A DNA stretch of 64,000 bases. It comes from Pomacea canaliculata (taxonomy: Eukaryota > Mollusca > Gastropoda > Architaenioglossa > Ampullariidae). A program made the translations under genes and the position numbers. The DNA lies in contig NC_037596.1 in assembly GCF_003073045.1 (NCBI RefSeq), positions 12,273,950 to 12,337,949 of the forward strand, written 5' to 3'. A model generated the notes under the pieces. The model did not search any database, was not told where the DNA came from, and was given only the letters and a program-made list of their open reading frames with translations. Below are positions 8,949 to 40,407 of this stretch, in pieces (the stretch's first letter is position 1; every line of letters begins with the position of its first letter).

Positions 8949-9137
8949 TTACTCTTTCTTTGGTCTGTTTATTTTCTGTTGGTAGCTTCGGGGCGGGGGG
9001 ACGATGGCGGTATCTTTGATGTCGGCGTATTCAGTTTTTGTTGTGGAGCCGATGATGTCCTTGGGAGAACTTGTGGTTGTAAAGTCTAGGTCTCCGTAAA
9101 TTAGTCCATCAGCGTTTCTACTTCCGGATGGCTTCTC
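8949..9137 (-). CDS. A1 exon 10: ITIM/ITSM tail and stop
   Basis: The acceptor is TAACAG at 9138-9143 and the exon starts in phase 0. It encodes 62 residues and a TAA at 8951-8949. LIYGDL fits the ITIM consensus (S/I/V/L-x-Y-x-x-L/I/V) and TEYADI fits the ITSM consensus (T-x-Y-x-x-V/I). The tyrosines are 23 residues apart. A Pro-rich VPPPR and a third Tyr (SYQQKI) follow. The matching B1 exon is decayed. Confidence 0.85.
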   Translation of the reverse strand, partial: EKPSGSRNADGLIYGDLDFTTTSSPKDIIGSTTKTEYADIKDTAIVPPPRSYQQKINRPKKE

Positions 9138-12100
9138 CTGTTACATGAATATAAATCAAATAATTCGTTATCGTAAAATCCATATTTCTCTGCCCGACTG
9201 AATAACAATGGTTGACTACAAAAAGAGATGAAGCACAGATATTTGTCCTAGTGACAAGTATCTAAATTAATACAAATAGATGTATGCCCGATGTAAGGGA
9301 ATGCATGCGTGAAGAAGTGAAGGTGTGAGCGAGGATAAGTAAATAGTGGGTAAGTAGACGTATGAATATTGAGTGAAACTGAGTGAAAACAGCGTAGCGC
9401 TCATAAATAGTCCACCACTACATTTACAATTTTAGCCAGATTTCAATCGTCGATGAACTCGATGAACTAACCAATTTTCATTGGAGACTTCATATTATTC
9501 TATTCCCACTCCCTGTTGTTTTTCAGTAAGTGGAATGTGCTGTGGTACTTAACCAAGAGAGGGTCAATTATGGGAGTAGCATCTTTTGGACTCATTGCCA
9601 ATGCCAGCGTCCTTTCCCATTTCAAGAAATCACTATTTTGAGATGCATTTAGGGTTTTCACTTAATGTCATGTATTCTCAGAAATACTCATTCTCTGTTA
9701 AATATAAATAAAAATACTTGAAGAGCACTCCTCGTGTTCTGCAGAAAGTTTTGCTCACAAGGAAGTTAAATATTCCTTCAATTCTTGCAGCAAGAAGAGA
9801 TGAGTGAGTCACTGTTTCAATTTTGTGCGAGTAAAGGTTAAAGTCTAAGTAGTGTCTTGATGGCGGCTTTGACTACGACTTCGAAATGAAACGAACGTTA
9901 CAACGCTTAATGTTAGGGATATACTTCATTAAACCCTGACCAAAAGTCCTGATAGAAAGCTAATCATGCCCGAGACCTCATAATCTCATTCGCAATGGAA
10001 TTCACTGCATGCTCACCACTGACATCGTTGTTTGGGCTTCATCGCTGACTTTGGCAAGAGGTGCCTTGCATTCTGCAAAACATTAAAATAAATGCTGAAA
10101 TATATATTATAATACAGCAAGCATCACTTAAATAACTCCTCAACTTCTACAAATGATTTTGGCCATTCTAGAATGCCATATCTATATTCTGTATTTATTT
10201 ATTATTTACTGGCCATGTCAGGTTCGATCGTTAGCATTTTCAAACACAGCTATGAACAGAAAGAAGAATGAAGACAATGATGATGTTGATGATGATGACA
10301 TTGATGTGTCGTTTTATTACATACAAAATAGCGAATACACTCTGAACTCTTAAACCCTCATTGGCCATGATCCTAGTCTAAACACGGATTATCAAGTGTT
10401 GACGCTAGGAAATATTTCCTGGTTCCTTCTTTAAATCAAGCTGAGTTGGTGGCAAGTGCAAGTGGCTGTTGCACAGAACAGACTCTTATTTCACAGAAGA
10501 AAACAAGAAAGTTGTTCACCATGAAGCCGTTATTCAAAAGTCAACTATGTCCTTACTGTCTCTCTGTCAACCCGTCTGTTACCTCGTCCGCCTGCACACT
10601 GCTTCATTCATTCATTTTCCCGCCCAGTAGCACGTGCACCCGTCCGTCCGTCTTTTTTTCTTTTTTATTGGCTCTGACATTATTCGCTCTAATATTTGAC
10701 ACTAACCTTTTTTTGCTCTCTTCTTTTCTTTGCGAACGTCTCTTGCCGAAACATAGGTGTCGCCTTGTGAGTCATCAGCTCCAACTGACAACCAAAAAGA
10801 GTTTTTCTTATTGTAATATTATATGTTACCTTATTTCTGCTTCAAGCTCATTGAGCTAGACTGGTAAAGCGGAAAACCAGACTATTAACGTTTGTCAAGT
10901 TTAATACAAAGTTTGAAATGAACATTGTTCTGCTTGTCTCACCTTGTTTTTTCAATCGTTTTTTCTCTCGAACCTCAGGTGCAGACACGTAGGTATTCTC
11001 TTCTGCTCCCAATGATGCGTTACCTGAGAAATAGCCAAAAAAAATCCCATGAGATCCGACCATGCTTTTGTCATTGTCAACAGACAAAGAATTTCTTTAC
11101 TGCTACTATAACCCCTTTCTTAAGTTTTTATTTTTCTGTGTCGTTTTCCTTCCACCCATGCTTTTATCCACGGAGTCCCGCATGTTTATCTGAGACTGAA
11201 TATACATATATCTGAAAAAGAAGGTTTGTGGCTTAATATAGACATGTCAGAATTGTTAATGAAAGAAAGGCCAAACACAACAGAGATATGTCAAAGAAAG
11301 CAAGGGCACTGTGGCTTAAGGTAGACATGTTCATTACTTTTTTACTAACAACAACAAAGGCAATAAAGGAGGACCAGCTATGATTATTATCTATATTCTT
11401 TTTATAGATGAAAGGCTTTTCTTCCAAGATATCCTATGCATTCATTTGAAAGTTACATCAAACTGATTCATTAAAGTCCTACTGAAGCCAAAGTGACAAT
11501 AAATATCCTATGATAGCTTACGAGAAATATTATGAACATCAGCAGCAGTGACTCGTGTCTGCGCGTGCTGTGAGCGTGGAGGGCGAGCTGGCATCTCCGA
11601 CATGGTCAGTGGAGAAAGAGGGTCTCGTGTATGAGGACTGCTCGTGTGGATGGCGTGGTTGTTGTTGTTAACAGCTCCACTCGTTTCATACACATCATTG
11701 ACAATCATACCTACAGAGAAAAGGGATATTCTGTTTTAAAAGAATAAATATCCTGCAGACTGAAAGAAGTCCTAAGAACGATTGTAGCTTTGTAAGATTA
11801 GGAAATAATTCTACTTCTGTCTTAAAACTCTCTTTTTTTCTTTTTTCTTTTATTTAAGAAAACAATACAAAAAACAAAATTTAAAATAAAAAATATGGAC
11901 TAAATTAATGTAATAAAGATAGTCCTGATAATATAGTTTGTAATCACTTACTTGAACAACTTCCTCGTCGATTTTCATTTGATCTATCGTTTCCAACTGT
12001 ATGTCTACAGTTTGATTAAAAAGAAATTATATGGTCAAAGAGTACAAATATAGATATTGCTTTTAATAAAAAAAAGGTTTTTCCTATTAATTGCATAAGA

Positions 12101-15100
12101 TTTAGAGATGAACTGTAAATTTTATTATTAATATTAATATTAGCAATTAATCAAAGATGTCTACAACTTTGAATGACACATAACAAAGACTTATTTACAA
12201 ACGTTTTGTGTAATCTTAATCAGATTAAAAAGCATTTTATTGAATTCCGTTCAGGATGCCATCTTTTTCCGAAATAATAATATTAGTACTCAAAACTGAT
12301 AATCAGCACATTATTCTGTATACTATGTGAATTATATGATGTGTACTTCATCTATAAATAAATCTTTGTGATCATTTTTATAATTCGCAGTTCACAAGCA
12401 TGTGGGTTTAGAATACAAGTGAACCCAGCAATAATAGTAAAAGATTATTTATGGCATAAAATTTATGGCGTTTTTCATTTGTCTCTCCCCGTAGGTAGAA
12501 GAGGAAGGAAGCACCTCATGCTAATTAAGGTATTACGCATGCGTGGAAAATGACAATATTGCTTGAATGTCCGAAGGAAATCGATAAAAGTCTTTTTAAA
12601 GATTTAAATGAGATGGAGATACTTTACAGAAACTCGTTTTACAAACCTTATAAACAAATCAAGACGGTCAGTCGAATCATAGTGCCTTTACCTAGGGGAT
12701 AGTGCGTTAGGGGATGATCTACCTGTCCACATGTACCTGTCCAGCCAGACAATGGGCAAGCAAGAAAGTCATGCAGCAGATAGAAGCTATCGGGAGCATT
12801 CATTAATTCAGCAATCATTCAAGTAAGTCCTTATGTCGTGAATGAGTGTATAAAGTCATAAAAAATACATACCTATTTGTCTCCACTGATCCTGTTGGCC
12901 ACATTCCATTGGAAACACAAACGCAAAGCAATATCAGAATAAAACTAAACACAATCAGGTCTCTTAATCGATAAACAATTTATATATGAAATTAAATTAT
13001 CTACTAAAGATCTGAGAACAAGAGCAGTACAATTGTGAATAATGTGGAACAGATCATACAATAATCCCAAAATAAAATACCTTTATACGGCCTTTGTACC
13101 ATATGCCTGTATGCAAAAGGCAGAACCTAAACACCACCTTGGGACTTTTTAATACCATTTCTAATATCTAGACGGAAAGTTTCATTTAGGTTAACAATAC
13201 ATTCTGTAAGTCAACCTTTCTCGGGTTTCTAAGGATCTGTCACATCCGACCCAAACTGTAAGCTTCTGACACCAAAAGTCTCGCATCTGTTTTTGTGTTG
13301 TCTTGGTTGGATAAATGCAACCCTCTATTTTTAAACTTCTCTAACTGCCAACTGCACAACCTTCAAAAATGCCGTTTGTATTCTCCTCAAAAGGGGAAAA
13401 GCGGATAATACCACACCCTCCTCCTCGAGCTTCATTGGTTGCATTGATTACAATATTTGCCCACTATACTGCCATCGTCTTCACGGTCTTGCCTCAAGAA
13501 TACCTTGGTAAGTAATGACTAACCGAGTCTACTAGTGTTTCCTTCCTCTCTGTGCCACCCATCAGACGGGAGAAGTTCGTCGACCGCCTTCAAAAAATTG
13601 CTTTAAAAATGTTTTTTTTTTCTATCTTAGCCTGAAGGAATAATAGATGTGATGTTAATATGTTTATAACAGCAGGCGGTTAATAGTTTTAGGAAGACTG
13701 GATTCTATATTCCATCCTAACGATCAATCATTAAGACTGTAACATCTTGCAGATCGAAACCTATTTCTATTGGTTTGCTCTTAAAGAGCGAAAAAAATTT
13801 CTTCTTTCTTCTAGGGTGGAGCTAGTGACTGATGACCCATCGAAGCCAATGAAATTAAATTAGAAAACTTCATAACACAACATAAATTAGAACAGCTCAG
13901 GGAAGAATTAGGCAGTCAAGGGCCACACATGCACACAAGGACGTCTAAGTGAACCTTTAAGGTAATTGTCATCTATCAACCGGACACAAAGTAATTTTTT
14001 TCTATTCCTCATCTTATGACCTTTAATCAGTCTAAAGGTCTTGGGTAGAGTAGTCTTGGTTTAACCAGACCTAAGTCCCTGAACTTAATGAAGGATGAAG
14101 GATGTACAAATGAAACCTGTTATCAGGGTGAAATGGTTTCTGGTTTTTCCTAAATTAATGAGGTAAGTAATTATTATCTAAACTCGAATCCAAAAATATA
14201 TGTTAATCATTGTTCGTGTTGGTGAAAACTTTAGAGTAACGCTTCTCACTGCAAGTGTTCTTATTCTTAGTAGTTATAAATAGACATTTTGAACAACATA
14301 TGATAACCAATCTTCTGGACAGTTAGCATTTGTGAAAGTGGTAAGCTATTTTTAAGATAATATCTGTCAATGTCGTCTTTGCAGTTATCATCGTCGTTAG
14401 CGTAATCATCACCATAAAATCAATCATATATTGTAGTTTAAAACCATTAATAACGGTTTAGACGTGTTTTACATATAGTAGTTCTGTGTAATCAATGTGT
14501 CTAGAATACAGAAAAATACCCGAGTTTCACCATCTGGTAAATTGGACTGTGTTACTTTTTTGGAAAAAATATTATTGAAATTAGACACAAATAACATCGC
14601 GATGTTTGAAGAGAAAGAGAGAGACAGCAATAACTTTTTTTCCTACCACTACTTTTAAAAAGTCTTACCATATCTCTTCTCTGTGACCTTTTTAATTGCA
14701 AGAGAACCAGCAACAGTGATCAAAACAACAGCAGCCACAATGCCGCACACGAGTATGATGTTTATTGTCTTCTCTGAAGTTAATGCTGGCGATTGCTCTA
14801 GCGCTGAAACAACAAAATAATTATATTTCCTGATGTGAACAATCTTCGTGTACATTGTCATTAATAGCTTACAAGTAGGTTTTATTCAATGTTCATACAT
14901 CACATCACACTATATTATGCCAATGTGATCGTAGTAAAAAGACACAAAAATAAAACAGAAATAACTACCCACCTCGAGTTAATAGAAAACTACAGTAAAT
15001 ATGAAAATACAGCGTTTATCATCTTTCAAAAAATGATGGTGATGATGATGATAATGGTGATGATTGATGATGATTGATGATTGATTGATGATGGATGGAT

Positions 15101-18100
15101 GGATGATGATTGATAAATGATGATTGATAAATGATTGATGATGATGATGATGATAAAATATTATTATTTAGAAAATACAAGAATAGCATACTGAACCAAA
15201 AACGTTTATATTGCAAGTTTGTTCTAACACTTTTAAGAAAAGGATGTCTTACGAATACTTGAAACAGATTACGCATTTGGTTCTTTATATATATCCTTTG
15301 GTGCTTCCAGAATGCCATAGATTGTACTATTTAGAAAAAAATGGACATTTCCTACCACCACACAACACAAACGCACATTTTCACCACTAATAAATAAGAA
15401 GTGAAATCCATTTTTTTGGGATGATACCAATGTGTTCTTGACTGTGGACATATCGTTGCAGTCAAAAGTGTATACACTCGTATGATTTTATTTTGCACTT
15501 TGGGGTTTTGTATATAGCATTGCTCAAGTACCATTTCTGGTATCATTATATATAGCAGTGGTTATGTTTTTGCTTATAGTTGCTAACTGTGCCTCTTAAC
15601 CGCCCACATCACGAAATTGCACGACAAAGCAAATATACAAGTATAATTTTATTACACGTCTAAAATCTATTTCGGGAACTTAAACAACTGGCCACAAATT
15701 ATCCATTCAGTAATTAATATTTTTTAAAAACTGTGATTACTTGACTTATCTGATACAATGACAGTTGTGTTGGAAGAACCCCAGTCATTGCTTAGTGTCA
15801 ATGTCCAGTTTCCATGGAAACTGTCATCTCTCTCGAGCTGAAGACTCAGGACTAGGTCAGGTGGATCCCCAGTAAGGATGCAGTTCACTTCCTTCGTGTT
15901 GTTATGTTGTAAAGTGAGAGATGTCAAGAGGCATCTATTGACTGCTGTGGTGTGAGCCTTGACACCAAACTTTACAGTGTCAACTCCAGGATCAACAGTT
16001 TTCGTTGACTTGTCAACAAACTGAGGACGACCTGGGGCAATTAAAAGAAGAAACTTTCTTAGAAGTTAGGTTCCTACGTATTTTAAGCATAATGAAATGT
16101 GTGCCAAAAGTATGAACCAATAAGGATCGTTTCATTCTAAAATGTGTTTAAGGTGTAAGCTTTTCTTAAAAACAAAAATTCATTTTAACATTAAAATCTT
16201 TGTTGCCCCCCAAAAATCTATTAAACATATTTGCAGTTTTTGTTAGCAGTTTTTTCTGAAGTTTTAAGTCTAATGTATTGAAAGTATTCTTGATATTGTA
16301 AAATCACGTCTTTCAATAATTTTCTTGGTGAGAATATTACTTACCAATAATAGTGATCTTCAAGCACATCTCTTAAAATTTCTTTCCATGTTTACTGATT
16401 ACATAAAATATTAACTAGAAAATTTTGATAATTATCACATCACACAGGCACCACGTTCGTATACTTTCATTAAATTTAAACAACGATCGTTTTACATAGG
16501 GCGGTCCCTGCCCAAAGTGACAATATAATTATAGACATTAGTCAACAAAGAACGACAAATATTAAATAAACAAATATCGAAACAGGCCACACTTTTATCG
16601 CAACGGTCATACCACACTATTGCAGCTCACTAGCATGTTTTCTGTGTTTGCAAATCTTGTCACCTCTCTGCCTCCTTGCATAAACACACTGTTTTGCTGA
16701 AGGTTTAGACATTTTAAGCAACTCCTAAGTAGGGCGTATGTCTACCCTGGAAATCTCTTGGTGATAAACTCTGTGATCATATAGTCCCTTGGAGTCCAGC
16801 TTTTTTTAATTTTTACAAAAAAAAAAACAAACCAACGGCCATACAGTTTACAGTTTAGAGAAAGAAATTCACACTCAGTAATAAACACAGACACAAAACA
16901 AAAAACCAGAACCTCGCAATAAGAACAAAATCTAACACACACACAAAGGCATGCCCTCTTCAAAACCATGTTCACAAGCTTTGCACATAAACGGGATCGC
17001 ACACGCTTGCATGCCCATATGAAGGAGCAAATAAAAGTATCACATTAATGTGTAAGATACGTGTAAACATTGAAGTTTGTTTACTTACACTTGACGAGGA
17101 TTGTCACGGACATATTATGTTGCGACCCGTTGCCTTCACACCTGACGACTGGCCAGTCATCTTCACACCGGGCAGTAAGAGAGTAGCTAAGTTGTCCTTC
17201 AGAACTAGAGGCATTCAGATTATCTCCATGTTTATCCAGCAAATAGAAGACACCTGGGGGATTGCCCTTCTCAAATAAGCAGGAAACATTGACCACCTGG
17301 CCCTCATCGATGATGACATTATCGCGCCCGTCCACAGTCAGATTCTTGACATTGGGTGGGTCTGCACACACACGAACACTACAGAGGGAAAAATAATAAC
17401 ACAGCAATATGTTGTGATCATTTATGCCTCCTTTTATCTGTTTAATAAATGTCAGATGCATGGAATTTTCGCCAACGACACACCTTGTCTAGATTCTTAT
17501 AAGTGTAAAACTGTTTGGGTGATTTCTATGACGATTTACTATTACAGGTAATGTTTTGATAATGTGTCGATGTATGTACTATTTGTTGTGTAGTTTCGTG
17601 TTACTTGTACTTTTGATTAATTATTGTTAATTTAGAAATGAATGTCAAATGCGTCTTAAGCACTGTAACGAAAGCATGTATATAAATGTGATGCACAAAT
17701 GACAGGTTTCATAAGCATTACTCATAACAACAGTCCACACAATGCTAGCTCATCTTCAAACTTCCCTACTTGTCTTTGTCTCCAGAATCACGACATCCTT
17801 GGGTCTCATTGCTCGATTCTTCTTTGCATTTTTTTATTTATCTTTCGTTAGTTATGTTTCATTAGTCATATATGCTGTTGCTTTACTTTCCATCCTTCGT
17901 ATGTCGTTCATGTCTCGTTCTTGGCTAAAGCAATAAAAGCACTCTGCTTATAAGCGTGGGTGCTATATAAGTCAAATGTTGTTTATTCTTCTTCTTTATT
18001 AATAAATCAGTAGTAGTAGTATTAATCGTTCACATACTAGTGACAAGGAATAGTATAAAATCAAAAGCTGAAACATAAGACGTAAAACTAACAGAATTTA

Positions 18101-21100
18101 TATGGATATGAAAACTAAGAGCACGAATCTAGATATAAATTATTTTAGATTTTAAATACATAGACTTTCATAAAAAGGATAAACAATACCTCAAAAACAA
18201 CGCAGACAATAACAACGCTCACAAACCTAAAACACATCTGAAATAAAATGCTCTTTTTTCTCTCTAGCATCTGACTAATGAGTCTCTGGTTATCTACGTC
18301 TTCCTAAATGTTGTAAGCTTTAATAGCAGACGGTAAATAGTCCATGGAGGTGCAATGCGATTAAAGGATCATCTTTTTTGTTAAGAAAACTAAATTTTAA
18401 ATAAAAAATTACAAAATAACTTCCTGACGAAGATAAAAACATACGAAATGATACAAGCACATGTAAATATCAAAGCCAGCCTTACAATATAATTCAGCAA
18501 GGCACAGTACCAGTATGTAGGACAAGACAACAGAAGAGAAGGTAAGAAAATTTCCATAAGTGGACTAGCCTTTCACTCAGTGCATTGCAGAAGAACTCAC
18601 GAAGTTGGTGTAAGTTGTAAGTAATATTATTAAATGAAAACTAATAGGGTCAAATTTATGTACAAAGAATCATTTGTTTTCTTAGCCAAATAGTTTCAAA
18701 AATGTGTTCAAATATGAATTAAAGTTGTCTTTTAATGTATGTTTATTATTTAACTGTTTAAGACTTTTCCGAAAAAAATGTCTTTTTTCAGATTATTTTA
18801 GTAATAAATATACAAGTGCGCCTGTTTGTGTGCGCTAGTGAGTTGTAGTTGCAATGACATTTGTATAAATAATTAGTAGTATCCAGACTAGCAGAATTAA
18901 CAGAACAACCGACTGTCCTTGTTAACCTTTAAAATAGAAAGTACTTTAAGTGATATTGAACATTACACTTAATACATTACAAATATAGAGTATATACCAA
19001 TCAAACATATGTATATAATTCTTATTACTGCTTCTTTGTACTTACTGAAAGTCGCACTAATATAAAAACATTTTAAACAATGTAGTCAAACTTTTATTAT
19101 TACTTACACAACACCTCAACACGTATCAGTCGGGTAGGTTTGGGAAGTTCACCTCTGCCAGTGGAGACTATCATCGCACTCAGTGACCTGGTGACGACCT
19201 GAGAGATGTAGATGTCTAAAGCCACCACAGAGCTGCTCACGTGTCGTTGCTCCCAGTAGCAGGTGACTCCTTTCTCTTGACTCAAGTTCTCGCTGATAAA
19301 GTCTCTTTTGTAAGCAAATATACATGGATTACTCAAAGAGTTTCCTTCACAAACCTGATAGTCAGCGTAAAAAGTGTCTGTAACATCAGGACTTGCCGTA
19401 ACGTTGATGGTGTAGTTGATATTGATAGAACTATTTTCTTCTTTACTCAGGCTTTCACTAAAGTTAGAAAACTGACCTGAAAGAATGAAAACGTTTCAAA
19501 AAATGTAAAAATTTGGAAAGAATATCTGGAATGTTTTAGTGAATGTAAAGGGGTAAATTTTTAAAAGATTTTTGTGTGCGAATTCCCCAAAATCGAAACA
19601 GCAGGGATGACAAAACAGTTTCGCAGCAGGCTATTAAAGGAAAAATTGGCGCCTGTGTATATGAAGGAATATTGTCATCAAGCGTCAGTTCCCGGAGTTT
19701 AAATGAAAGGCAAGTTATAAAGCATTGGTAGCAGTGACTTGGGTCATGGAGATCAAGCCATGCATGTATGTCCGTGACTTTTGCGTTATGACTATGTCAA
19801 TGACCAGTCAATGCTGGTATATAACTTTAAGCTTTTCCTCCCTAGTTTTTACCCCGATTGGTACCTAACCTTTACTGATAATGTTTTTTTTCGTATGAAG
19901 TCATGTATTTCAAACGCATATCCAGCCTCGTGCGCTAATTGCCATTGTTCGATGACATTTAATGGTTGTCTCTTCAACTGTTCTTCAGTGTGTAAGAGAT
20001 TTGTTCCACTTTTATTATTTCTTTATTCTTGGACGACGCAGAGCATAAAGTAGGGAAACGCACGCTGAAACTATTACGCAAGTTATATTGTAATTGTGTC
20101 CTTTTCCAATAATAAACAATTTTACATTTCGCAAAATCTTTTGCATCGTATGCCTATAGAGATTATGTAATACAGAGGCTGTGGAATAGCCATAAAGGAG
20201 TAGATATATTTTAATTAAAAATATAAACACTGTAAAGAAAATCATGACTTCACCTTTTGAAGACCAAGAAACAGATTTGTCTCATGATTTTAAATGGAAC
20301 AAAAATTTGATTGAAACAAACTTAGAGCAGCAAATTTGTATAAGGCATATATGTCCCTACAGACCACAAGAGAACTTGAGTGTTGCTTCTTATCCTTCGT
20401 TTATTTTCGATAGCTGCAACAATAAATGCTCAACGAAATCAAGAATCAAATGTCTTTGAGATATTTCTAAAATCCTTCGATTTTGCTGGTTTGATAGCTT
20501 TTGTTGTTGATCAAAATGAATTGTACATGTAGCACAAGGGGATTCCTTTCCAAATTAATGCTCAAGAAACATAATCTATTCATTCTTGGGAATAAATTTT
20601 GTAATGGGATATCATGTGGTTCTTCCCTTAACAAACTGCTGGTCCACCGAACCGGATCTTCATTGTCATATGTTTCTGATGTGATACTTAGGAAACGCTT
20701 TGAAATGATAATGAATACCTTACACTTTCCAAACAAATTCTGAAGATGCTTTTCCTAGAACAGATCCCAACTTTGATAGGGCTTTCCAAATTCGGCCTCC
20801 GATCACTTATTAAATCAATGCTTTCAAAATGCACGACACCCAAGCAAACAACACTTAGCTAATTAAGACATGATAAAACTCAAACAACATCATTAAGGTA
20901 TACATAAAAAAACAAAGCAATAAAGGTATGGTGAAGGTGTGATTCGAAGACCAGGTACCTCTATCAGTTGCGATTATAGACAGGGAAAAAAAACTGAAAT
21001 TGAATATGGACGTGGGAAGAGAGAGGTTGCTATGCTTACTAAACTACTTGAGAATTCGTGTTGTAAAGTTACTATTAATAATTTCTTCAATATGCATTTG

Positions 21101-22180
21101 CTTCAAAGAAAGTCACAGGAAAAGAAAATATACTTGTGCATTCTGATAGGAAATACATGCCGAGAAATCTCAAGAAAGACAATGATATGAAAAGTGGAGA
21201 AAGCCTCATGTTGTCACCAAAGGATGTTACCTGATTTAAGTGGATGGACAACAGATCAGTTGTGCCTTGTCCTGAAATTGTCGTTGCCTACAACAAACTT
21301 GTGGTGAGGTAGACATCATAGATAAGAAAATGATTACATATAAAGTTGATCGAAGGTGAAAGGGGAAGTACTACTGTCGAATATTTTTCGATTTGTTAGA
21401 CATAGCGGTGAACAACGCTCACTGTATTTTACGCAGATGAATCAGAAATTCAATCCTAAATAAAAGGAGATAGCTTGAGTACAGACAAATGATAGCAAGA
21501 GCAGAGCGCTCATTAGAAATTACACAATCAGGAAGAGAAGTATTTCATCAGAACCTGTTTGTAGCAGCAGCAAGATCATTTCACCCTCATGACCTAAGCA
21601 CGAGTTGGTCAAAGAAGAAAAGCGCAAAAAGTCAATGTGCAAAGGACAAAATCGAAAACAGGACTAACAATGTGTGGGATGTATGCCATGTTCATGTGTC
21701 CTACACAACATCGTGGAACTGTTTTAAGAAGTACCATTCATATATTACATTACAGGCATAAAAGATGGATCTTTGTTCTCATCACTGTCCTATCATTTAT
21801 GATGTTCCATAACAACAGTGCAATGTCTCATCACTGTTTAGATAAATAATATTGACAGAAACCATACCGCACATTATTACCGATAATAATGATAACAATA
21901 ATTATAATAACGATAGAGAAATATTGACAACAATAATAATAAATACAAAATATGTAAATCGCATACTCACACACTTAATGTCTTGAACTAAGTAAATTAT
22001 CTTTTATAAGATTAACTGCTTTAATGATTAGCAAAATTTTCTTTATTAGAACCTGTAATGAAAAAATTTGGAAGGAAGATTAGAAAGTAATAGTCACTAC
22101 TTACATGTCAGCAAAAGCACTCCTTTCGTCAGCGTGAGAAGAACCACAAATGTACAGGAAACCTTTATAAGCGTGTTCAT
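8949..22180 (-). CDS. Receptor A1: Ig-like membrane receptor with ITIM and ITSM
   Basis: Ten exons on the minus strand: 22180-22105, 19476-19108, 17361-17089, 16031-15741, 14803-14669, 12891-12873, 12004-11952, 11710-11522, 10072-10017, 9137-8949. All introns are GT..AG and phases chain without error (1,1,1,1,1,2,1,1,0), giving 1650 bases and about 549 residues. Layout: signal peptide (1-25), Ig-like module D1 (26-148), Ig domains (149-239 and 240-336), one membrane helix (about 350-373) and a tail of about 170 residues with an ITIM (Tyr501) and an ITSM (Tyr524). In vertebrate receptors such motifs, when phosphorylated, recruit SH2 phosphatases or adaptors and damp or switch signals. The ligand is unknown. 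It sits head to head with A2 and has paralogue B1. I know no named orthologue; a recognition role is inference. Confidence 0.85.
10017..10072 (-). CDS. A1 exon 9, cytoplasmic
   Basis: A 56-base exon with acceptor TTTTGCAG and donor GTG|GTGAGC. It begins in phase 1 and ends in phase 0, exactly what is needed to join exon 8 to exon 10. It encodes a short hydrophilic segment (QCKAPLAKVSDEAQTTMSV). A homologous but stop-containing segment lies at 40782-40840 in cassette B. Confidence 0.75.
10073..11521. other. A1 intron 8
   Basis: AT-rich intron with pyrimidine-rich tracts near 10640-10740. Open frames here on the plus strand (for example 10446-10859) are low-complexity and lack coding features. 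No gene seen. Confidence 0.5.
11522..11710 (-). CDS. A1 exon 8, cytoplasmic
   Basis: A 189-base phase 1 to phase 1 exon, acceptor TTCTCTGTAG, donor CTC|GTAAGC. It encodes a Ser/Thr/Pro/Asn-rich segment with a tyrosine in NDVYETSGAV and four consecutive Asn. The tyrosine is not in an ITIM frame but could be an SH2 site. No clear counterpart was found in B1, where the equivalent region is shortened. Confidence 0.75.
11952..12004 (-). CDS. A1 exon 7, cytoplasmic
   Basis: A 53-base exon, phase 2 to phase 1, acceptor CTGTAG, donor CAA|GTAAGT. It encodes a basic, Asn-rich piece (HTVGNDRSNENRRGSCS). B1 has a 53-base exon at the same place (46302-46354), which supports the border choice. Confidence 0.7.
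12873..12891 (-). CDS. A1 exon 6, micro-exon
   Basis: A 19-base exon between CCAACAG and TAG|GTATGT, phase 1 to phase 2, encoding GSVETN plus a split Arg. Alone it would be unconvincing, but B1 has a 13-base micro-exon at the same position with the same phases (47118-47130), and only this exon lets exon 7 be read open. Confidence 0.6.
12892..14668. other. A1 intron 5
   Basis: Non-coding as far as I can see. A pyrimidine-rich, slightly GC-richer piece at 13370-13600 could be an old repeat, but I cannot define its borders. Confidence 0.4.
14669..14803 (-). CDS. A1 exon 5: stalk and transmembrane helix
   Basis: A 135-base phase 1 to phase 1 exon. A short Ser/Glu-rich juxtamembrane stretch is followed by a hydrophobic run (INIILVCGIVAAVVLITV, continuing to AI) and a basic stop-transfer KKVTEKRY, giving a type I topology with the tail inside. 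B1 has the homologous exon at 47638-47766. Confidence 0.88.
15030..15165. repeat. GATGAT/GATTGA microsatellite in A1 intron 4
   Basis: Irregular array of TGATGATGATGA, TGATTGATGA and GGATGGATGGAT units, in the intron between the membrane exon and the second Ig exon. Not present at the equivalent place in B1. Confidence 0.8.
15741..16031 (-). CDS. A1 exon 4: membrane-proximal Ig domain
   Basis: A 291-base phase 1 to phase 1 exon encoding about 97 residues. It shows an Ig-like pattern: a Cys in VNCILTGDPPDL, a WTLTLSNDWGSS motif near the last strands, and an earlier Cys in NRCLLTSL. It is well conserved with B1 exon 4 (48363-48656), including the start RPQFVDKSTK and the end SNDWGSSN. One exon per domain with phase 1 borders is normal for extracellular Ig modules. 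Confidence 0.85.
16032..17088. other. A1 intron 3
   Basis: AT-rich intron. The open frame at 16742-17002 on the minus strand is intronic, sits beside an A-run and lacks domain features. No gene. Confidence 0.5.
17089..17361 (-). CDS. A1 exon 3: middle Ig domain
   Basis: A 273-base phase 1 to phase 1 exon (91 residues). The junction with exon 2 reads VLYPP, the usual start of Ig domains. The B-strand Cys is in VNVSCLFEKG and the F-strand Cys in PVVRCEGNGSQ, with another Cys in TARCEDD. Several N-glycosylation sequons occur. B1 exon 3 has the same length and about 85 percent identical residues by eye. The acceptor GTGTGCAG at 17362 was chosen over an upstream CTGTAG because the paralogue keeps only this one. 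Confidence 0.88.
17362..19107. other. A1 intron 2
   Basis: Intron with one SINE/LINE-like tail near 17880-17995 (GTGCTATATAAGTCAAATG followed by TTCTTCTTTATTAATAA). Otherwise nothing recognised. Confidence 0.5.
19108..19476 (-). CDS. A1 exon 2: N-terminal Ig-like module D1
   Basis: A 369-base phase 1 to phase 1 exon, about 123 residues. It has sequons at NSSINI and NYT/NVT, Cys residues in YQVCEGNS, SNPCIF and VTCYWEQR, and a strand-rich second half ending at RLIRVEVL. I call it Ig-like from context and Cys spacing; it is not a textbook V domain. Flanks are almost identical to B1, but residues after CEGNSL and up to GVTC differ strongly and by a three-residue indel, so this may be a binding loop. 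Confidence 0.85.
20244..21920 (+). mobile_element. Decayed piggyBac transposon in A1 intron 1
   Basis: Plus-strand transposase remains read in several frames: an acidic N-terminus from 20244; MGYHVV / LTNCWSTEPDL; RFEMIMNTLHFPN; RQGKKTEIEYGRG; SCCKVTINNFF; WMDNRSVVPCP; then VDIID and KMITYKVDRR; and a C-terminal Cys-rich zinc-binding piece around 21640-21740 (CHVHVSYTTSWNCF). This order is that of piggyBac transposases. Stops and shifts make it dead. B1 intron 1 is 610 bases against 2.6 kb here, and alignment breaks at AAAGAAARTCATGA near 20235-20247, so the insertion post-dates the cassette duplication. TTAA-flanked ends were not identified. Confidence 0.75.
22105..22180 (-). CDS. A1 exon 1: signal peptide
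   Basis: ATG at 22180-22178. It encodes MNTLIKVSCTFVVLLTLTKG and then VLLLT, a classic signal peptide with a Lys, a hydrophobic core and small residues near the end. Donor ACAT|GTAAGT in phase 1. B1 has the homologous exon (52155-52227) with a different but equally hydrophobic sequence. Confidence 0.88.
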
Positions 22181-26641: not shown

Positions 26642-26770
26642 CTATTTCCACCATGAGCTGTGAAGTTAGGAACGAAAAGTGTCCGTTTCAAATACAATGC
26701 TTATTTCCCACTAATGCTGATGATAAACGACCTTTTACTCTTTACTTTTATTCTTCCCAGGGAAGTCAAG
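26642..26770 (+). CDS. A2 exon: first half of Ig-like domain
   Basis: A 129-base phase 1 to phase 1 exon after TATATTGCAG, donor CAAG|GTAAGG. It encodes MSCEVRNEKCPFQIQCLF and FTLYFYSSQG. An in-frame ATG with good context (CCACCATGA, at 26653) is kept in B2. Upstream in-frame sequence in A would also read as a hydrophobic stretch (FFVFVYIAA) from an ATG at 26542; it is kept open in B2 for a short distance but without an ATG, so I take it as the polypyrimidine tract of an intron. Confidence 0.75.
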
Positions 26771-29700
26771 GTAAGGAATTGGAGAGCCATATCCCTCACT
26801 GTCCATCTATCCGATCCTCATCCATGTTATATAAACTACTAAAATAAGTTATTTTTAATTAGGTCAATGCTTTTTTGTTGGCCCATAGCTTTCACAAGAA
26901 AATTCCTCTTAAATGAGACATTAAAATGAGTAACAAACTAATACAACAAAAGCTAAATAAAACATATATCTATCTTCAGTTTGTAATTTCTTCTTCTGGG
27001 GCGGAGGATGACAGTTTCACTCCAAATCTTTCGGTGTCTTTTAATTAATAGTCAGCTTACCATTAAAGTGTCAAGTCGTTCCTCGTTATCTGCTCTTCTG
27101 CTATCTCATCATTTTCATCTAGTATCAGGGAGTCTGAGACCCCAGATTCCGTATGTCCAAACCTAGCTAAATAATTCAAGACTATGCAAACTGTAAGCTC
27201 ATTGTTTGGTATTGGAGAGAAATAAAGTGAAATTATTCAAGGTGTTTGAAACATCCGTATGATGGTCGGACTTGATTGGATAACAGCGGGGTCTCTGTCT
27301 CCCAGACCAGTATCTTGTGTAAAACTCAGACATCAGGGAAATGTTATACACCTTTTTGAAAAGTCTCAAATTGAAGATTGTAGTATAAATTTTGTTTTCA
27401 TCTACTTGATAAACAATCTATACTGTCTAAATTATTCGTAAACCATCTAAACCCTTTTTAATTAACATTTTTACATTTTTACACAGAACGAGTACTTGGC
27501 TGTGCGTACAACGGAAACCATACATGCTTTCACAAAAATGGATTCGAGATCACACATAAAGGTTTTAACGATGCCACCATCACAGTTCCTGACACATTTG
27601 CAACAAGCAATGGTTCATTTGTTTGCAAGAAAGGATACATTGATACGTTTAAAAATTGTTCGTACCATCCTTCAGGTAAGATTTTCTCGAGTTGTAAAAT
27701 ATGGTTTTGGAACACAAGGCTGCAACGTTAAATGGCTAACAGACTAACATGTCAAATGTTAAATGAAGTTTAAAGCTCCTGGCTCATTTTGTAACAAATT
27801 ACTCAATTTTAATTATTTGTTTTGAGAGAATTCAATATAGATCAAAACCTTTTCGTGAGGTTTAAACAGATCTGCAGGGAGTTCGGTGAATTTTTCATAT
27901 TTGATACAGTCAGCTTGTAAGTTCTTTAAAATCGTAAAACGTAGGGTACCCAGACCATAAAATAGAAAAAGATGTAAACAAAGAACAGAATACAAAAATA
28001 CTCTAAAGAATTTATAGAAAAAGAGTAGGATGTTTTGCTGTAAAAGGGTAACTTCTTACACAGCGATGATGGATTTTATAATTTTTATATTTTTAATTCT
28101 TTTACATACATTGTAATGAATCGATGTTGATACTTACATTTAAAATACTATTAATGCTTGCAGAAAAAGGAAAACAAAAAAAGAGAAAAATCCTCAAGTG
28201 TGAAGCGTGATTACCCATCACGAACAACAGATATTACCAAATATTAGTGGCTATGAAAATATAATTTTACAGTGCGGGAATTAAATATAAACAAGAAAAA
28301 AGAACGAATTGTAATACAATCAGAAAAAATGCGTACTGCCATCGTAGTACACATTCAAACTACCTTTCCTATCTACAGCACACCTGATAGCCATGGAACT
28401 AGGCTTTTGCCAACAGTGAAGTGATCTCCATTGCTATGATGGTTATCATTCTGAGTTCCCTAACTACACCCCATGATCTTTTGATAACAAGATAATAATC
28501 TTGTAGTTCTCAGGACCTAATATGAAATATGCAGGGTGAAATATAAAATGTGTTACACGTGAAAGCCCAGCCTTTGTTATGTGGCCCCTTTGTAAGATCT
28601 GATATATATCGGACTGCAAGAGAACTTTACTACGTGGTCAATTAACGTCTGTTCTCTAAAAGCAAAAGTATTAACTATGCGGATACAAAAAACGGAAGAA
28701 GCATACATAATGTTATTTTTTCAGTTGTATACCATTGTATTGAAACCAGTTTTCCCATTAAGTTTAATACCCGGATCTAGTATTATGCATTGCTCATTTT
28801 TTTTCAGAAATCTGCAATACTATTAGCAGCACTGAGTCTGGAATCGGTCTTGAGACGACTACAAAAGGTAGGTACATATTAATAAAATAAATGTCTTAGT
28901 CTCTTGATGGTTTATCAAACACTGCCAAGACAACAAAGTTCTTTCTTAAAAGCATGACTTCATTATCTGGAAGGCTTTTTAAACTTTAGCTCTGCTCTGC
29001 TTTAGCTCTTCTTGCTCTTTTCAAAGAAATATTTCTTTTATAAATACATGTACAAGGAAACAGATTAAGCACCAGTCACCATTAAACAGATAAAGAGGTA
29101 GATGACATAACATACTTTATATGTTTATGCGCATGAGACAATGTTTACTCATCTGTAACTGTGTTCTGCTGTGTCACATCACCGCCTCATCTTCATGCTT
29201 TGGTTTTTTTTTTCACTTGACTGGGACTTCCTGTGCAGTGCACTATGGTAATGGGGAAGCTCGTTGTACTAGTAGACTGTTATTACTGTACAACACCTTG
29301 AGTCCTGCTGATGTTGGAGGAACGCGCTATATAAATGTGCTTCTTCTTATTATTATTTTGTTATCAACATACTGTGTACATATACAAGTGTGTACAAAGT
29401 AACAAGGAACACATTTTTATTCTGCCCCTTCCTCTTGTTCTCTCCCCTATACCCTATACTCTCCTTAGGTCAATTGTGTGTGCTAACAGTGTGCACAAAC
29501 GTGATTAAAAAAACTATGTATGAACAAGATAACAAATTCATGTAAAGTTTTACATATGTTTGATTTAATAAAATCCTGACTGCTTATGTATACCGGTCAC
29601 CGTGCACCACTTTTTTTCATTCTCTAGGAAAATACCTCCCGATCATAGGTAATGATTTCTGTTTTCTCAAATGGTGCTCTAACTTTATGTTGTTTAGGAC

Positions 29701-32700: not shown

Positions 32701-35577
32701 AAAAAAATCCAAAGTACTTGCTTTTTACTGTTATAAACTTTACAAAGGAGATCTACAAAGGATGTGTTTATAGTCATTTGTCACAAGTACATGTACAGTA
32801 AACAATAAAAAGAGCTATTTAGAGGCCTTTTTCATTCCAGAGGTCTTTAAGAAAATGTTTTGGTTTTTTGGTTTGTTTTTGATGTGTGAGATTTTCTTCT
32901 GGAGCTCTAACTTTTATGGTGATATGTGTTTCTGTTCTTTCAGATGTCAGTCCTGCAGTTCTTGCTGGTGTGATTCTAGGATTAATCACCGTCATTGCGC
33001 TTATCATCGTCATCGTCTGTCTGCTGCTCAGGAAATACAGACCTAAGAGTACGACTGCATTTTCCTCACTTGATATTATGAAATCACAGTTTAAATGAAA
33101 ACACGAGTAAAAAATTGGTTTCTTTATGATCGGGTTAATTTCCTTTTTAAATAATAGTTTCCTAAACATGAGTAGATAATTATTCTTAATTTTCAATATG
33201 TCTTGGAACATCAGCATTCTCACCTGCCACTAGAAAAGCATTGAAATACCTGCTAAGCAGGAGAGTTTAGTTCGGTACAAGTAGTATTTTTAACAGGGAG
33301 TCAGTTAAGCAAATCTCTCATGTCTTCAAGTAAAATAAACATCGCCACGATTGTGTTAAAGAAGCGATTTTGCGCCAGAAAATAAAAAGGCTGATTTTGA
33401 AATACAACTTTACAGATTAGAAGCTTTAATTAAACACAAAAATAAATAAATACAAAGGTATAAAAACCGAATTCACTCGAGAAAGTAGTAAAAAAAGCAG
33501 AGATCTGATCTGTGTTTACATCTTTGAACAAACATAATCCAGTGGCATTTGTAGTCAGCAGCCAGTGTCTTTAGGTAATGACAGTAAGTACAAACTCCAT
33601 CTGAATGTTGAAGAGAACATCCAGCAACATTACATAGTGTGCTGGTCTGTTTTCTTTTACCACTGATTGCATACTTTTTTCTTTAAATTCAGTGTTTTCA
33701 GAGGAAATTTGAGCAATACTAACCTTTTGTTACTTCCTATTTTCTCGACTAATCTAAAAATGCATAAGATAACACTATTAATATACTTACCAAGTCTTTT
33801 CGTCCTAAACTACCACTACAATATTTTTTCTGATACTTTACTGTCTATTTTCATTGATTTTCTCCGACGGCTTGGGCTAATTCTTAATATGGTTAAAAAC
33901 TATGCACATATGATTTCTTAATTGAACTAAATTTGAAATAAAATATTAGAAAAAAGCATATTTCTTTTTGAAGCTTTAGCAGTCAGATCATGCGAAAAAA
34001 TATAGTCTTCAAGTAGTCATACATTAGTAACTAATGTATGTATTGTATTTTGAAACAAAATTTCATATTAAAAAAAATTTGTTTTAGGTTATGGGCGTTC
34101 CAAGAAATCTCCAATGTAAGTTGAATGCTTTCGAGTCTCGTTAACTGTAATCTATGTGACATGACCACAATAAAATCTCGTTTTTATTTTTTTCATTTAA
34201 TCTATGTGACAAGACCACAATGAAAATGAGATTTTACTGTAATTGGATACTTGTATGCCACTCAGTAAAAAATCCTCTGTATCAGACAGTTTTTCATTAG
34301 TGTCCTGATCAATTGACTAAAGAGTGACGGGACCCTGTACTTGACTACAATAGTATTTTATTTTAAATGAAAAAAAAAAGACTTACAGAAAATGGTACAA
34401 AGGCGACATGTAAAATAGCATTTCATGTGAGCAAATCAGTGAAGTACAACCAATCTCAAGATGTCTAACAATGTCTATCAACCCAGTTCTCCTAACAAGA
34501 GAACTTTTTTCTCCTCTCTAAACTCATATTCTAACCGAATGGCTAATAAAAGTGTGAAGCAACAGAAGAAGTCCCGATCAAGATGGGACAGTGCCAAAGT
34601 TATTTATCCAGGTGCTTAACACCATATAAATGTTATATCTATACCCTTGAGGCAGTACTCTGTACACTCACTCAATCATTCCAATGCACATAAATCATAA
34701 CATATCATTTTTGACTAGCTCTGAAACATGTACAGTAACCACACATCTTGCTTTGTTTAGATACACCGTTGCTACACCAGTCATCGTTAGCGACGAATAC
34801 AACAAAGTCTTTCTTTGGAAAGAAAACAACCATGTAAACCAACTGACGACTGACCCTGCATCACCTAGCTTCAATGGAGGCATTGTGGAAACAAAGGACC
34901 TGCTCCACTGGTATGGAAAAACACTGTTCACAATTGGTTTAAACATATTGTAAAGAATTTGAATAATGAACAAAAGGGTTACCTACCTTGTCGTAAATTG
35001 TCCGTAAATAACGCGTAACTATGGAGATACAATACCTCTGTGGTGTGCTTCCTTGCGTGCAAGAGCACATCAGTATGTGTGTATTAGAATATATTGATGA
35101 ATGCAGGTGAATATTTCTTGATATTATCTATTCTCTAGGGACGTAAGAGTGAGAATATAAAAAGACTGTACTCTTCAGATGATAGTATCAACGACGATCT
35201 CGGTTGTCAGCAATCTGAAAATACAATCTAAATAATTGTTGGCATTATAAACAACTTGCAAAGTTATAGGTGCTCACCACCGTAGAAAGCAGACCGTTTC
35301 TCATCACAGCGAATATCCAGTTTTTGTTTCTCTCTTTGTTCTCAGCACTAAACTGTTCTCAAACTAAGCTCATTTTTTGTACTCACACTGCACCTTTGCC
35401 ATCTTCTTGTTTTCTTTCTTGTCCATAAGATCTTAAGATCTATTGATTTTGTTTTTAAATTGTTTCGTTTTTTATAGGGATGACGAACTAACCATCAATG
35501 CGCCGACGGCAAACGCCGACCAGGAGCACACATCTACTGACAACGAGAACAATGGCGATTCTTGGTGGAAATTGTGA
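26642..35577 (+). CDS. Receptor A2: single Ig-like domain membrane protein
   Basis: Eight exons on the plus strand: 26642-26770, 27487-27675, 28808-28867, 31260-31301, 32944-33048, 34088-34115, 34761-34910, 35478-35577. Phases chain (1,1,1,1,1,2,2,stop), giving about 267 residues plus an unresolved N-terminus. One Ig-like domain is split over the first two exons (Cys in IQCLF and FVCKKG), then a Ser/Thr-rich stalk, a membrane helix with a basic stop-transfer, and an acidic tail with tyrosines (IYTVA, DEYNKVF) that do not fit the ITIM consensus. One donor is GC. It is head to head with A1, and B2 is its paralogue. The start is open: no signal exon is certain. Binding partner unknown; A1 is an obvious candidate to test. 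Confidence 0.75.
27487..27675 (+). CDS. A2 exon: second half of Ig-like domain
   Basis: A 189-base phase 1 to phase 1 exon. It has LGCAYNGNHTCF, ATITVPDTFATSNGSFVCKK, and KNCSYHPS. The pattern TVP..G.FVC is that of E and F strands of an Ig fold. B2 has the same length with about 75 percent identity by eye. Confidence 0.8.
28808..28867 (+). CDS. A2 exon: Ser/Thr stalk
   Basis: A 60-base phase 1 to phase 1 exon encoding ICNTISSTESGIGLETTTK. Rich in Ser/Thr as in O-glycosylated stalks. B2 has the same exon at 59927-59986. Confidence 0.75.
29130..29360 (+). repeat. SINE/LINE-like interspersed element, A2 intron
   Basis: It ends ACGCGCTATATAAATGTGC followed by a TTCTTATTATTATT tail. Homologues: 60240-60490 (cassette B, shared by descent) and 38470-38605, with looser tails at 17880-17995 and 46545-46690. 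The (ATT)n tail after a GCTATATAAAT word is typical of many invertebrate retroposons. Confidence 0.5.
30885..31125. repeat. Highly conserved intronic block, cassette A
   Basis: About 230 bases nearly identical to 61860-62080 in cassette B, well above the similarity of neighbouring intron sequence. It includes GATGCTGCATGGTATTTAAG and GAGAAAGTAGACACCCTACT. No reading frame is shared through it. It may be functional, a recent repeat copy or a conversion tract. Confidence 0.55.
31260..31301 (+). CDS. A2 exon: extra stalk segment with GC donor
   Basis: A 42-base phase 1 to phase 1 exon after CAAATTTTAG, encoding GVDFTLTTEQVGNK. The donor is AAAG|GCAAGT, the consensus form of the rare GC-AG introns. 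Skipping it would also keep frame. In B2 the same position reads TTTTAGTGATTGACTAATT and the exon is lost. Confidence 0.5.
31550..32300 (-). mobile_element. CR1/L2-type LINE reverse transcriptase fragment
   Basis: Minus-strand RT remains in order: VNDSLSSGIFSTTFKTALV, STETALPKVTNDIL, LDLSNFFDSIDHTTLIHRL, LYGISGS, GSVLGPILFIM, SFAVDTQLYT and IQSIQDPISD. The catalytic FADD is FAVD, and stops occur, so it is inactive. The order and wording match CR1/L2-like RTs. It lies in the A2 intron before the membrane exon. The same fragment is in cassette B (62243 onwards), so it inserted before the duplication. Confidence 0.8.
32944..33048 (+). CDS. A2 exon: transmembrane helix
   Basis: A 105-base phase 1 to phase 1 exon after TTCTTTCAG. 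DVSPAV leads into VLAGVILGLITVIALIIVIV and CLLL, then RKYRPK: one helix of about 23-25 residues and a basic stop-transfer. The B2 copy would lie roughly 1 kb beyond the right edge of the window. Confidence 0.85.
34088..34115 (+). CDS. A2 small cytoplasmic exon
   Basis: A 28-base exon after TTTTAG, donor AAT|GTAAGT, phase 1 to phase 2. It encodes YGRSKKSP. Accepted because it changes the phase exactly as the following exon requires. Confidence 0.55.
34149..34238. repeat. Short direct repeat in A2 intron
   Basis: AATCTATGTGACATGACCAC and AATCTATGTGACAAGACCAC stand about 50 bases apart, each followed by AATRAAA. A small local duplication. Confidence 0.7.
34761..34910 (+). CDS. A2 exon: cytoplasmic tail
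   Basis: A 150-base phase 2 to phase 2 exon after TTTGTTTAG, donor CACTG|GTATGG. It encodes YTVATPVIVSDEYNKVFLWK and FNGGIVETKDLLH. Tyrosines are present, but the residue two before each is not S/T/I/V/L, so no ITIM or ITSM is called. Confidence 0.7.
35478..35577 (+). CDS. A2 last exon, acidic C-terminus
   Basis: A 100-base exon after TTTTTATAG in phase 2, ending in TGA at 35575-35577. It encodes WDDELTINAPTANADQEHTS and ends GDSWWKL. The open frame stops right where GC-richer, repeat-like sequence starts. Confidence 0.7.
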
Positions 35578-39310: not shown

Positions 39311-40339
39311 TTAATATTAAGTTTGTCTACTTTTGGCTTACTCTGATTGTCTTAAGTGTGGTTTTGTATGTCATCGTGATGGTGTCATAGCATTCTGAGT
39401 GAAAGGGGAGATTGATTAACAGTAGGCACAGGTGAATGTATTCCGTGCAAGAAAATGTAGATAAATTGAAGACATGTACATTTTGTAGATATCAACAGCA
39501 TTTGCTTAAGTTTTTAAAATGTTCAACATAATTACAATCTGCAAATTTGTTCTGGAAATTAGTACAGGATACGATTGTATACCTGCTTTTCTCGTAATAA
39601 ATGTCAGCCAAAAGCCACAAAAAAAAATCTCGAAATAAAATTCTGAAAAATCTTATGCACATTTTGTTATAAAGTTTGTATAATGTCTGAAAACGCTAGG
39701 CCGTGTGAGAGAAGATGACAAATACTCTTTTGCCTCTGCATTACTTTAATAGAGGGAGTACACTTTGTGTCCACACACCCTGTAAATGAAACCACAACTA
39801 CATCTAGTTTGATGCCATGTACTCTCCCTGTTAAAGAAATACAGAGGTGTAATAAAAAAAAAGTAAAGAAACATATAAACATACAAGACCGAAAATTAAT
39901 GTTACTCTGAAAATCAACTCGTAAGATATGTTCCACATGCCACCATGTCAGGTTGTGTTTTAAAGCTAAGCAATAAATTCTGGTATAGTTCTAGCATTAA
40001 ACTTTCAACATAAAAAACAATGGGCCTGTACTCAGATCATCTTCATTTGTCCTTTTGCATGTACCAGATCTTACACTTATATAACAGTTCCTTCACCATT
40101 CACAAACATTTCTTCAACAGTCAGACCTCAAACAGTGAAATGCTCTTCGACATTTGCTTTCAATTTATAAATTGCTCATTACAACAAAGCAGTAATCACG
40201 ACCATTGGTCTCGGCATCAACCTCTCATTGCCTTATAGCTCGTCTGTAACAGGCTGTACAGTGGCTCGGAAAATCTTTTCCCTCAAGAAAATTATAGAAT
40301 ATATTAGAATATTTTGTTTTTATTCCAGTGGCTCGGGCG

Positions 40340-40407
40340 AACTCGTGATTGTTTAACTAGGTCTGAGTTGATCAGTCCATCAACATCCCATTACAGAATG
40401 GTGTCTC
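40340..40407 (-). pseudogene. B1 remnant of the ITIM exon
   Basis: On the minus strand, after TTTAACAG, the sequence GAGACACCATTCTGTAATGG aligns with the start of A1 exon 10, and GATGGACTGATCAACTCAGA aligns with the segment encoding DGLIYGD in A1. One base is missing near 40392, which creates a TGA at 40374-40372, and the ITIM tyrosine codon TAC is AAC (40369-40367). The ITSM part is not recognisable. Thus B1 has lost the ITIM/ITSM exon. Confidence 0.7.

Follow-up and report, generated by a model that had tools for sequence, protein, structure and literature searches.

Known tyrosine-motif Ig receptors and the A1 locus

Paired on/off immunoglobulin (Ig) receptors with tails bearing an immunoreceptor tyrosine-based inhibitory motif (ITIM) and an immunoreceptor tyrosine-based switch motif (ITSM) have so far been described mainly in vertebrates. 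Here, we describe A1, a predicted Ig receptor gene of the snail Pomacea canaliculata whose last exon encodes both motifs, within a stretch of 64,000 nucleotides termed the window (positions 12273950-12337949 of contig NC_037596.1, hereafter C7). C7 is a contig of 30.9 Mb in a genome of 440 Mb. Our preferred reading, at a probability of roughly two in three, is that A1 belongs to the long-tailed, inhibitory-type receptors within a very large family of paired Ig receptors on this one chromosome-scale contig, and that it acts via a SHP-2-type phosphatase. If true, such circuit logic would have originated, or been retained, outside chordates as well, and mollusc activation thresholds set by receptor balance become directly testable in an invasive, parasite-transmitting snail.

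The vertebrate KIR, LILR, FcRL, SIRP and Siglec receptors and PD-1 share with the snail family an Ig ectodomain, an ITIM followed by an ITSM, long- and short-tailed relatives and an organization in large linked families. As far as the accessible text of one study goes, linked families comprise at least 75 XFL members in Xenopus and more than 100 CHIR members in chicken, and activating-type transmembrane segments of Xenopus bear NxxR (PMC2413239); those of short-tailed snail relatives bear glutamate or glutamine. Orthology to PD-1 is not supported, as PD-1 has a single IgV domain compared with three Ig exons in A1 and three domains in a structure model of the neighboring paralog A2; Siglecs possess a V-set domain with an arginine that binds sialic acid, and domain 1 of the A2 model is predicted to be V-like. 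Human PD-1 contains the strings YGELDF and TEYATI, both of which occur in several snail paralogs, and the two tyrosines of PECAM-1 are, like those of A1, 23 residues apart. Neither PD-1 nor any other vertebrate immune receptor was matched in protein, profile or PDB searches, the sensitivity of which is limited, and convergence on SH2 specificity would for this reason be the simplest account of the likeness between snail and vertebrate tails. The family profile yielded one weak match among PDB sequences, the adhesion protein SYG-2 (E 0.014), and the tail matched PDB and Pfam entries at chance level only.

Tyrosine-motif Ig receptors are already known in invertebrates, namely oyster, Botryllus and Hydractinia. 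Oyster IgIT proteins bear ITIMs. The partial accounts accessible to us describe CgIgIT, CgIgIT2 and CgSiglec-1 of Crassostrea gigas as inhibitory Ig proteins, with IgIT inhibition in haemocytes; CgIgIT2 has five Ig domains and a motif called an ITAM (immunoreceptor tyrosine-based activation motif) and CgSiglec-1 two I-set domains, compared with three Ig domains in A1, and these accounts mention neither an ITIM-ITSM pair nor a large linked family. FcoR/FF of Botryllus, in the available text of PMC12065747, form multigene families of type I Ig receptors whose tails contain an ITIM or hemITAM and whose genes each adjoin that of a cognate partner, an arrangement to be compared with the A/B gene pairs of the snail; FcoR differs in its V-type Ig, sushi and two C2 Ig domains, in belonging to a chordate and in its allorecognition genetics (PMC12065747). 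The same text reports ITIM/ITAM motifs on the Alr candidate allorecognition receptors of the cnidarian Hydractinia (PMC12065747), and part of another paper describes an ITIM-bearing leucine-rich repeat receptor in amphioxus (PMC8211107). Gastropod VIgL proteins (FREP, CREP) contain divergent Ig domains that are poorly detected by software, as in A1, but according to the accessible text they join Ig to a lectin domain (PMC9334734), whereas A1 combines a transmembrane segment with a tyrosine tail and has no Pfam lectin domain. The available portion of a review on apple-snail immunity mentions an Ig-SRCR lectin and CREPs, and no ITIM receptor (PMC9178244). No description of the present Pomacea family was found in titles and abstracts, subscription papers being mostly out of reach, which does not establish novelty in print. 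Within these sources, we found no account of an invertebrate in which about 30 linked Ig receptors share a conserved ITIM-ITSM exon and are accompanied by relatives lacking the tail, by a decayed tail and by divergent partner genes.

The ITIM-ITSM exon and its conservation

In a splice model derived from the sequence, A1 consists of a signal-peptide exon, three Ig exons, a transmembrane exon, cytoplasmic exons C1-C4 and the last exon (Table 1), a type I layout of extracellular Ig domains and one transmembrane segment, with the Ig fold modeled on paralog A2. All nine junctions are GT/AG, in phase 1 for eight and phase 0 for the last, and no internal stop interrupts the product of 578 residues. 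The last exon (9137-8949, minus strand), preceded by ..AACAG, is a single open frame reading EKPSGSRNADGLIYGDLDFTTTSSPKDIIGSTTKTEYADIKDTAIVPPPRSYQQKINRPKKE*. It contains, as the first-pass annotation had claimed, an exact LIYGDL fitting the ITIM pattern [SILV]xYxx[ILV] and an exact TEYADI fitting the ITSM pattern TxYxx[VI]; their tyrosines, residues 530 and 553, are 23 apart and lie, again as annotated, near the C-terminus behind the membrane helix of an Ig receptor. Joining of this exon to the receptor had been set beforehand as a test, and splice phase and the NCBI gene model agree on it: annotated protein P0001 (LOC112569090 isoform X2, same contig) has the same sequence as the A1 model between the Ig1 end and the stop codon. 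P0001 lacks the first exon and most of Ig1, and has 24 additional residues, placed in microexons of 19 and 53 nt. Exon 12004-11952 had been omitted from our model as frame-breaking alone; paired with the 19-nt microexon, as in the NCBI isoform, it keeps the frame. Counting both microexons, the last exon is number 12, which corrects its initial designation as exon 10. The tandem exons C2 and C3 (10707-11023, minus strand) encode a repeated TYVSAxxVRxEKKR-like module that is similar in P0021, P0022 and P0020 and offers possible extra phosphotyrosine sites.

By itself, the ITIM-ITSM pattern is modest evidence, and its conservation among paralogs is much stronger. An ITIM followed by an ITSM within 60 residues arises in 0.32% of 20,000 residue shuffles of the 205-residue A1 tail. 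Stop-free stretches in the six frames of the window contain 4 such pairs, including that of A1, whereas 40 Markov windows contain 0.95 on average and never more than 4, and a looser regular expression finds 7. Motif counting was set aside as sole proof because of these four occurrences. An ITAM reading was likewise rejected: 19 residues separate the two YxxL/I motifs, whereas ITAM motifs are spaced by 6-12.

A search with the 62-residue tail exon returned 38 genomic matches (E up to 10), 37 of them on C7; 30 of the 38 form the alignment, the other eight having E values of 0.3 to 8.7. Tyr 14, Tyr 37 and the leucines at ITIM positions -2 and +3 are invariant in all 30 aligned exons, and glycine at +1 and phenylalanine at +5 are retained in 28 each. 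Around the second tyrosine, threonine at -2 is present in 27, and position +3 is isoleucine in 27, leucine in 2 and asparagine in 1. A strict ITIM is hence found in 30/30 and a strict ITSM in 24/30, with exceptions at L018 and L019 (TEYAAL), L026 (NHYAQI), L028 (MEYAAI), L030 (TQYAQN) and L033 (VNYETI); L031 reads TEYTDI in the alignment. The tyrosines are spaced by 23 residues in 27 rows, by 24 in 2 and by 22 in 1. Their codons are mixed (22 TAC and 8 TAT at one tyrosine, 17 TAC and 13 TAT at the other). Across all pairs, the ratio of nonsynonymous to synonymous differences (pN/pS) amounts to 0.21 for the 12 motif codons versus 0.65 for the remaining 39; the respective pS values, 0.73 and 0.68, are near saturation. 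Conservation counts as strong evidence because both tyrosines and the two ITIM leucines have stayed fixed despite this nearly saturated synonymous divergence. The expectation that the tyrosines would be conserved is borne out by 30 of 30 aligned exons, all of them paralogs; the protein searches found no ortholog from another species. The first-pass judgment that the motif pair is unlikely to be chance holds weakly for the pair taken alone and strongly once these paralogs are included. Among the weaker tail matches, five places were read, with an ITIM in all five and an ITSM in three (both occur in L054, L086 and L091, and L065 and L066 have just the ITIM). L086 and L091, at 27.1-27.5 Mb, combine LIYSSL with TEYVSI or TEYISI. 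At 22.3 Mb, L068 (C7:22295201-22305200) appears by eye to be a distant multi-Ig receptor with fibronectin type III-like domains and a related tail, LIYADL..VNYETI; the tail exon may derive from it or be its cousin.

These data bear on two alternatives. Chance motifs or a dead gene, with the exon lying outside any working receptor, would be in keeping with the four regular-expression pairs in the window, but the in-frame splice model, the matching NCBI model, the lack of an internal stop in A1 and motif columns kept in 30 paralogs at near-saturated synonymous divergence render this explanation hardly credible. Alternatively, YGDL and YADI might serve as YxxPhi endocytic or sorting signals with an incidental likeness to ITIM and ITSM. 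Both motifs satisfy YxxPhi, yet constraint extends to the -2 leucine, the +1 glycine and the +5 phenylalanine of the ITIM and to the -2 threonine of the ITSM, positions that YxxPhi signals do not need, and spacing stays within 22-24 residues in every aligned row; we regard a sorting function as improbable.

Most tail exons elsewhere on C7 appear to belong to receptors as well. A same-strand Ig2 exon lies at most 10 kb upstream, a limit picked in hindsight, of 28/37 C7 tail exons, equivalent to 28/32 of those inside clusters, compared with a mean of 6.1 and a maximum of 15 for 32 random in-cluster positions in 2000 trials. The corresponding counts are 5/37 on the downstream side and 2/37 on the opposite strand. 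The annotated proteins P0001, P0002, P0021, P0022, P0025 and P0030 combine an A1-like ectodomain and a hydrophobic transmembrane segment with an ITIM/ITSM tail, and P0033 and P0035 contain the tail in partial or unusual gene models.

Tail-less relatives, a decayed tail and partner genes

The tail exon is carried by a minority of the C7 Ig family, which extends, like the partner genes, well beyond the coordinates flagged in the first-pass annotation. In a search with the A1 Ig2 exon, scoring of 150 among 165 candidates yielded 150 matches at ~148 places, two exons being split into two pieces each, and every listed match lies on C7; five rows contain a stop, and these are counts of exons, not proven genes. 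Most matches fall at 11.2-13.3, 14.9-15.8 or 17.1-18.5 Mb and two more at 21.7 Mb, and no tail exon was found in the Ig2-rich regions of C7 at 13.0-13.3 or 17-18.5 Mb. The ten closest transmembrane exons include three in genes with C1-C3 tail exons (A1, L010 and P0002), reading NIILV, NIILV and NIKLV, and seven for which no tail exons were found, reading NIELV in five cases and NIELA and NIQLA in one each, so that the residue at the membrane edge is glutamate in 6/7 and glutamine in 1/7. These seven may share one ancestor and hence do not represent seven independent events. Some annotated relatives, for example P0009, end after Ig3 without a transmembrane segment, and soluble forms are possible.

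The neighboring gene A2, which is of the second, tail-less kind, retains a relic of the tail exon. Its local alignment score is 34, from the best placement tried over 13 kb, compared with a mean of 9.7 and a maximum of 18 in 500 shuffles. The relic has a stop and has lost its frame; DGLINSDL follows the stop, with asparagine at the position of the ITIM tyrosine. By contrast, the Ig exons of A2 are stop-free, with pN/pS of 0.57 to 0.79 relative to A1, and judged from sequence the A2 ectodomain is not obviously dead, whereas its tail is. A perfect inverted repeat of 28 bases (41417-41444 and 44838-44865) flanks ~3.4 kb between the A2 transmembrane exon and the relic; it resembles a DNA transposon insertion and may have helped to separate the tail.

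Gene B1 (26.6-33.1 kb, plus strand) is arranged head-to-head with A1 and encodes a small cysteine-rich ectodomain, a transmembrane segment and a short tail without ITIM; a Pfam scan of the B1 ectodomain returned nothing over threshold. Its exon b has 22 genomic matches, 21 on C7. Relative to an A-type Ig2 exon within 16 kb, C7 B exons are head-to-head in 14/21 and tail-to-tail in 6/21 cases, and all 11 B matches with E below 1e-6 are head-to-head. Between 11.19 and 13.29 Mb, 13/17 B exons are head-to-head compared with a random mean of 4.8 and a maximum of 12 in 2000 trials, a control made imperfect by local Ig2 strand bias, and the 16-kb cut-off was picked after the distances were known.

A broader proposal, for which the case is evenly balanced, is that C7 houses what in a protostome corresponds to the leukocyte receptor complex and to the Botryllus FF/FcoR locus. 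It would hold some 150 or more Ig receptors evolving by birth and death, partly in divergent A/B pairs, about 30 with a PD-1-like ITIM-ITSM exon of fixed geometry and others that lost or never had it, and would serve recognition of self, pathogens or parasites via a balance of inhibitory and non-inhibitory members.

Proposed signaling and its alternatives

In the inhibitory mechanism that we propose for A1, the three extracellular Ig domains, the outermost being V-like, would bind a ligand, and binding would lead to phosphorylation of Y530 in the ITIM and Y553 in the ITSM by a Src-family kinase. The near-constant spacing of 23 residues would suit docking of tandem SH2 domains, and a SHP-2/corkscrew-type phosphatase would thereby be recruited and dampen activating signaling nearby. 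A2 and other relatives in which the tail exon was lost could act as competitors or activating partners, the head-to-head B gene as a co-expressed partner, and expression would be in haemocytes. A candidate tandem-SH2 phosphatase gene is present in the genome: a group of SH2 matches on contig C2 (35208148-35210311) is followed by protein tyrosine phosphatase (PTP) exons on the same strand (35215646-35217598), the arrangement of SHP-2/corkscrew. The genome contains 46 SH2 matches, and among the PTP matches listed no second SH2 group lies within 100 kb of PTP exons. The inhibitory tails probably act through this SHP-2-type gene. The mechanism is weakest in its claim that the signal is negative, because SHP-2 can also act positively.

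The same tyrosines could instead belong to an adhesion- or growth-type receptor that recruits SHP-2 or another SH2 protein, SHP-2 promoting signaling, in neural or epithelial rather than blood cells. Corkscrew acts positively in receptor tyrosine kinase signaling of the fly, a SHP-2-type gene is the only one found beside PTP exons among the matches listed, and A1-like tails contain extra tyrosine modules such as NDVYETS and TYVSA. Structural comparison of the A2 model, predicted to contain three Ig domains with a V-like domain 1, points in the same direction, with IgLON and DIP neural adhesion proteins as nine of its ten best matches and titin as the tenth; IgLON leads again in a second comparison. 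However, a common Ig fold reveals no function, and ~150 copies on C7, close relatives that have lost the tail and the pairing of A with B genes look more like immune paired receptors than like adhesion families, so that we deem an adhesion or growth role unlikely, albeit the strongest competitor to the inhibitory reading.

Several observations besides these structural matches weigh against an inhibitory receptor family. SHP-2/corkscrew is often a positive regulator. A Pfam scan of A1 returned nothing over threshold and called no Ig domain, and Pfam likewise found no Ig domain in P0022, P0025 and P0030, where "Ig" denotes similarity to A1; among relatives, weak Ig matches were obtained in 13/25. 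The short-tailed transmembrane residue is acidic or polar and not basic like that of vertebrate activating receptors; in paired receptors of the KIR/LILR/SIRP type, the charged residue of short-tailed members pairs with an ITAM adaptor. The NCBI model of the L069 gene, P0023, stops before a tail exon ~0.8 kb further on, which speaks against universal use of the exon. Tail exons were collected by similarity to motif-bearing queries, leaving badly decayed copies such as that of A2 outside the set of 30, and the 10-kb limit between Ig2 and tail exons was picked after the distances were known. Finally, named matches in the protein searches for orthologs (20, 3 and 23) all belong to Pomacea canaliculata; in two of these searches only the top word-sharing candidates were scored, and relatives elsewhere are possible.

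Table 1 Exons of A1, A2 and the partner genes B1 and B2 in the window
Feature	Positions	Strand	Basis
A1 signal-peptide exon	22105..22180	-	splice model; P0004-P0006 begin similarly
A1 Ig domain 1 exon	19108..19476	-	splice model; V-like in A2 structure model
A1 Ig domain 2 exon	17089..17361	-	splice model; relatives listed on C7
A1 Ig domain 3 exon	15741..16031	-	splice model; fold from A2 counterpart
A1 transmembrane exon	14669..14803	-	hydropathy maximum 2.86
A1 microexon 1, NCBI isoform X2, 19 nt	12873..12891	-	by-eye match to P0001
A1 microexon 2, NCBI isoform X2, 53 nt	11952..12004	-	by-eye match to P0001
A1 cytoplasmic exon C1 (MIVNDVYETSG..)	11522..11710	-	splice model, P0001
A1 cytoplasmic exon C2, ENTYVSAPEVREKKR module	10943..11023	-	splice model, P0001
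A1 cytoplasmic exon C3, GDTYVSARDVRKEKKR module	10707..10784	-	splice model, P0001
A1 cytoplasmic exon C4	10017..10072	-	splice sites, phase, P0001
A1 last exon with LIYGDL (ITIM), TEYADI (ITSM) and stop codon	8949..9137	-	same sequence closes P0001
A2 (LOC112568070) signal-peptide exon	52155..52227	-	by-eye match to P0006
A2 Ig domain 1 exon	51167..51544	-	window reading
A2 Ig domain 2 exon	49459..49731	-	window reading
A2 Ig domain 3 exon	48363..48656	-	window reading
A2 transmembrane exon (NIELV)	47638..47766	-	window reading, transmembrane comparison
Decayed ITIM/ITSM exon behind A2	40331..40426	-	local alignment, three-frame reading
B1 ectodomain exon a	26642..26770	+	AG/GT, phase 1, by eye
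B1 ectodomain exon b	27487..27675	+	AG/GT, phase 1, by eye; genome matches
B1 transmembrane segment and short tail, no ITIM	32944..33098	+	window reading
B2 (~56.9-57.8 kb) ectodomain exon b, B2 and A2 being head-to-head	57577..57768	+	genome matches

An Rfam scan of the window gave no match. Just downstream of the A1 last exon, long frames at 5019-8090 (plus strand) resemble by eye an endonuclease/reverse transcriptase of a long interspersed nuclear element. Further dense I-set clusters occur elsewhere in the genome, on contigs C1 (14.38-14.63 Mb) and C11 (0.53-0.56 Mb).
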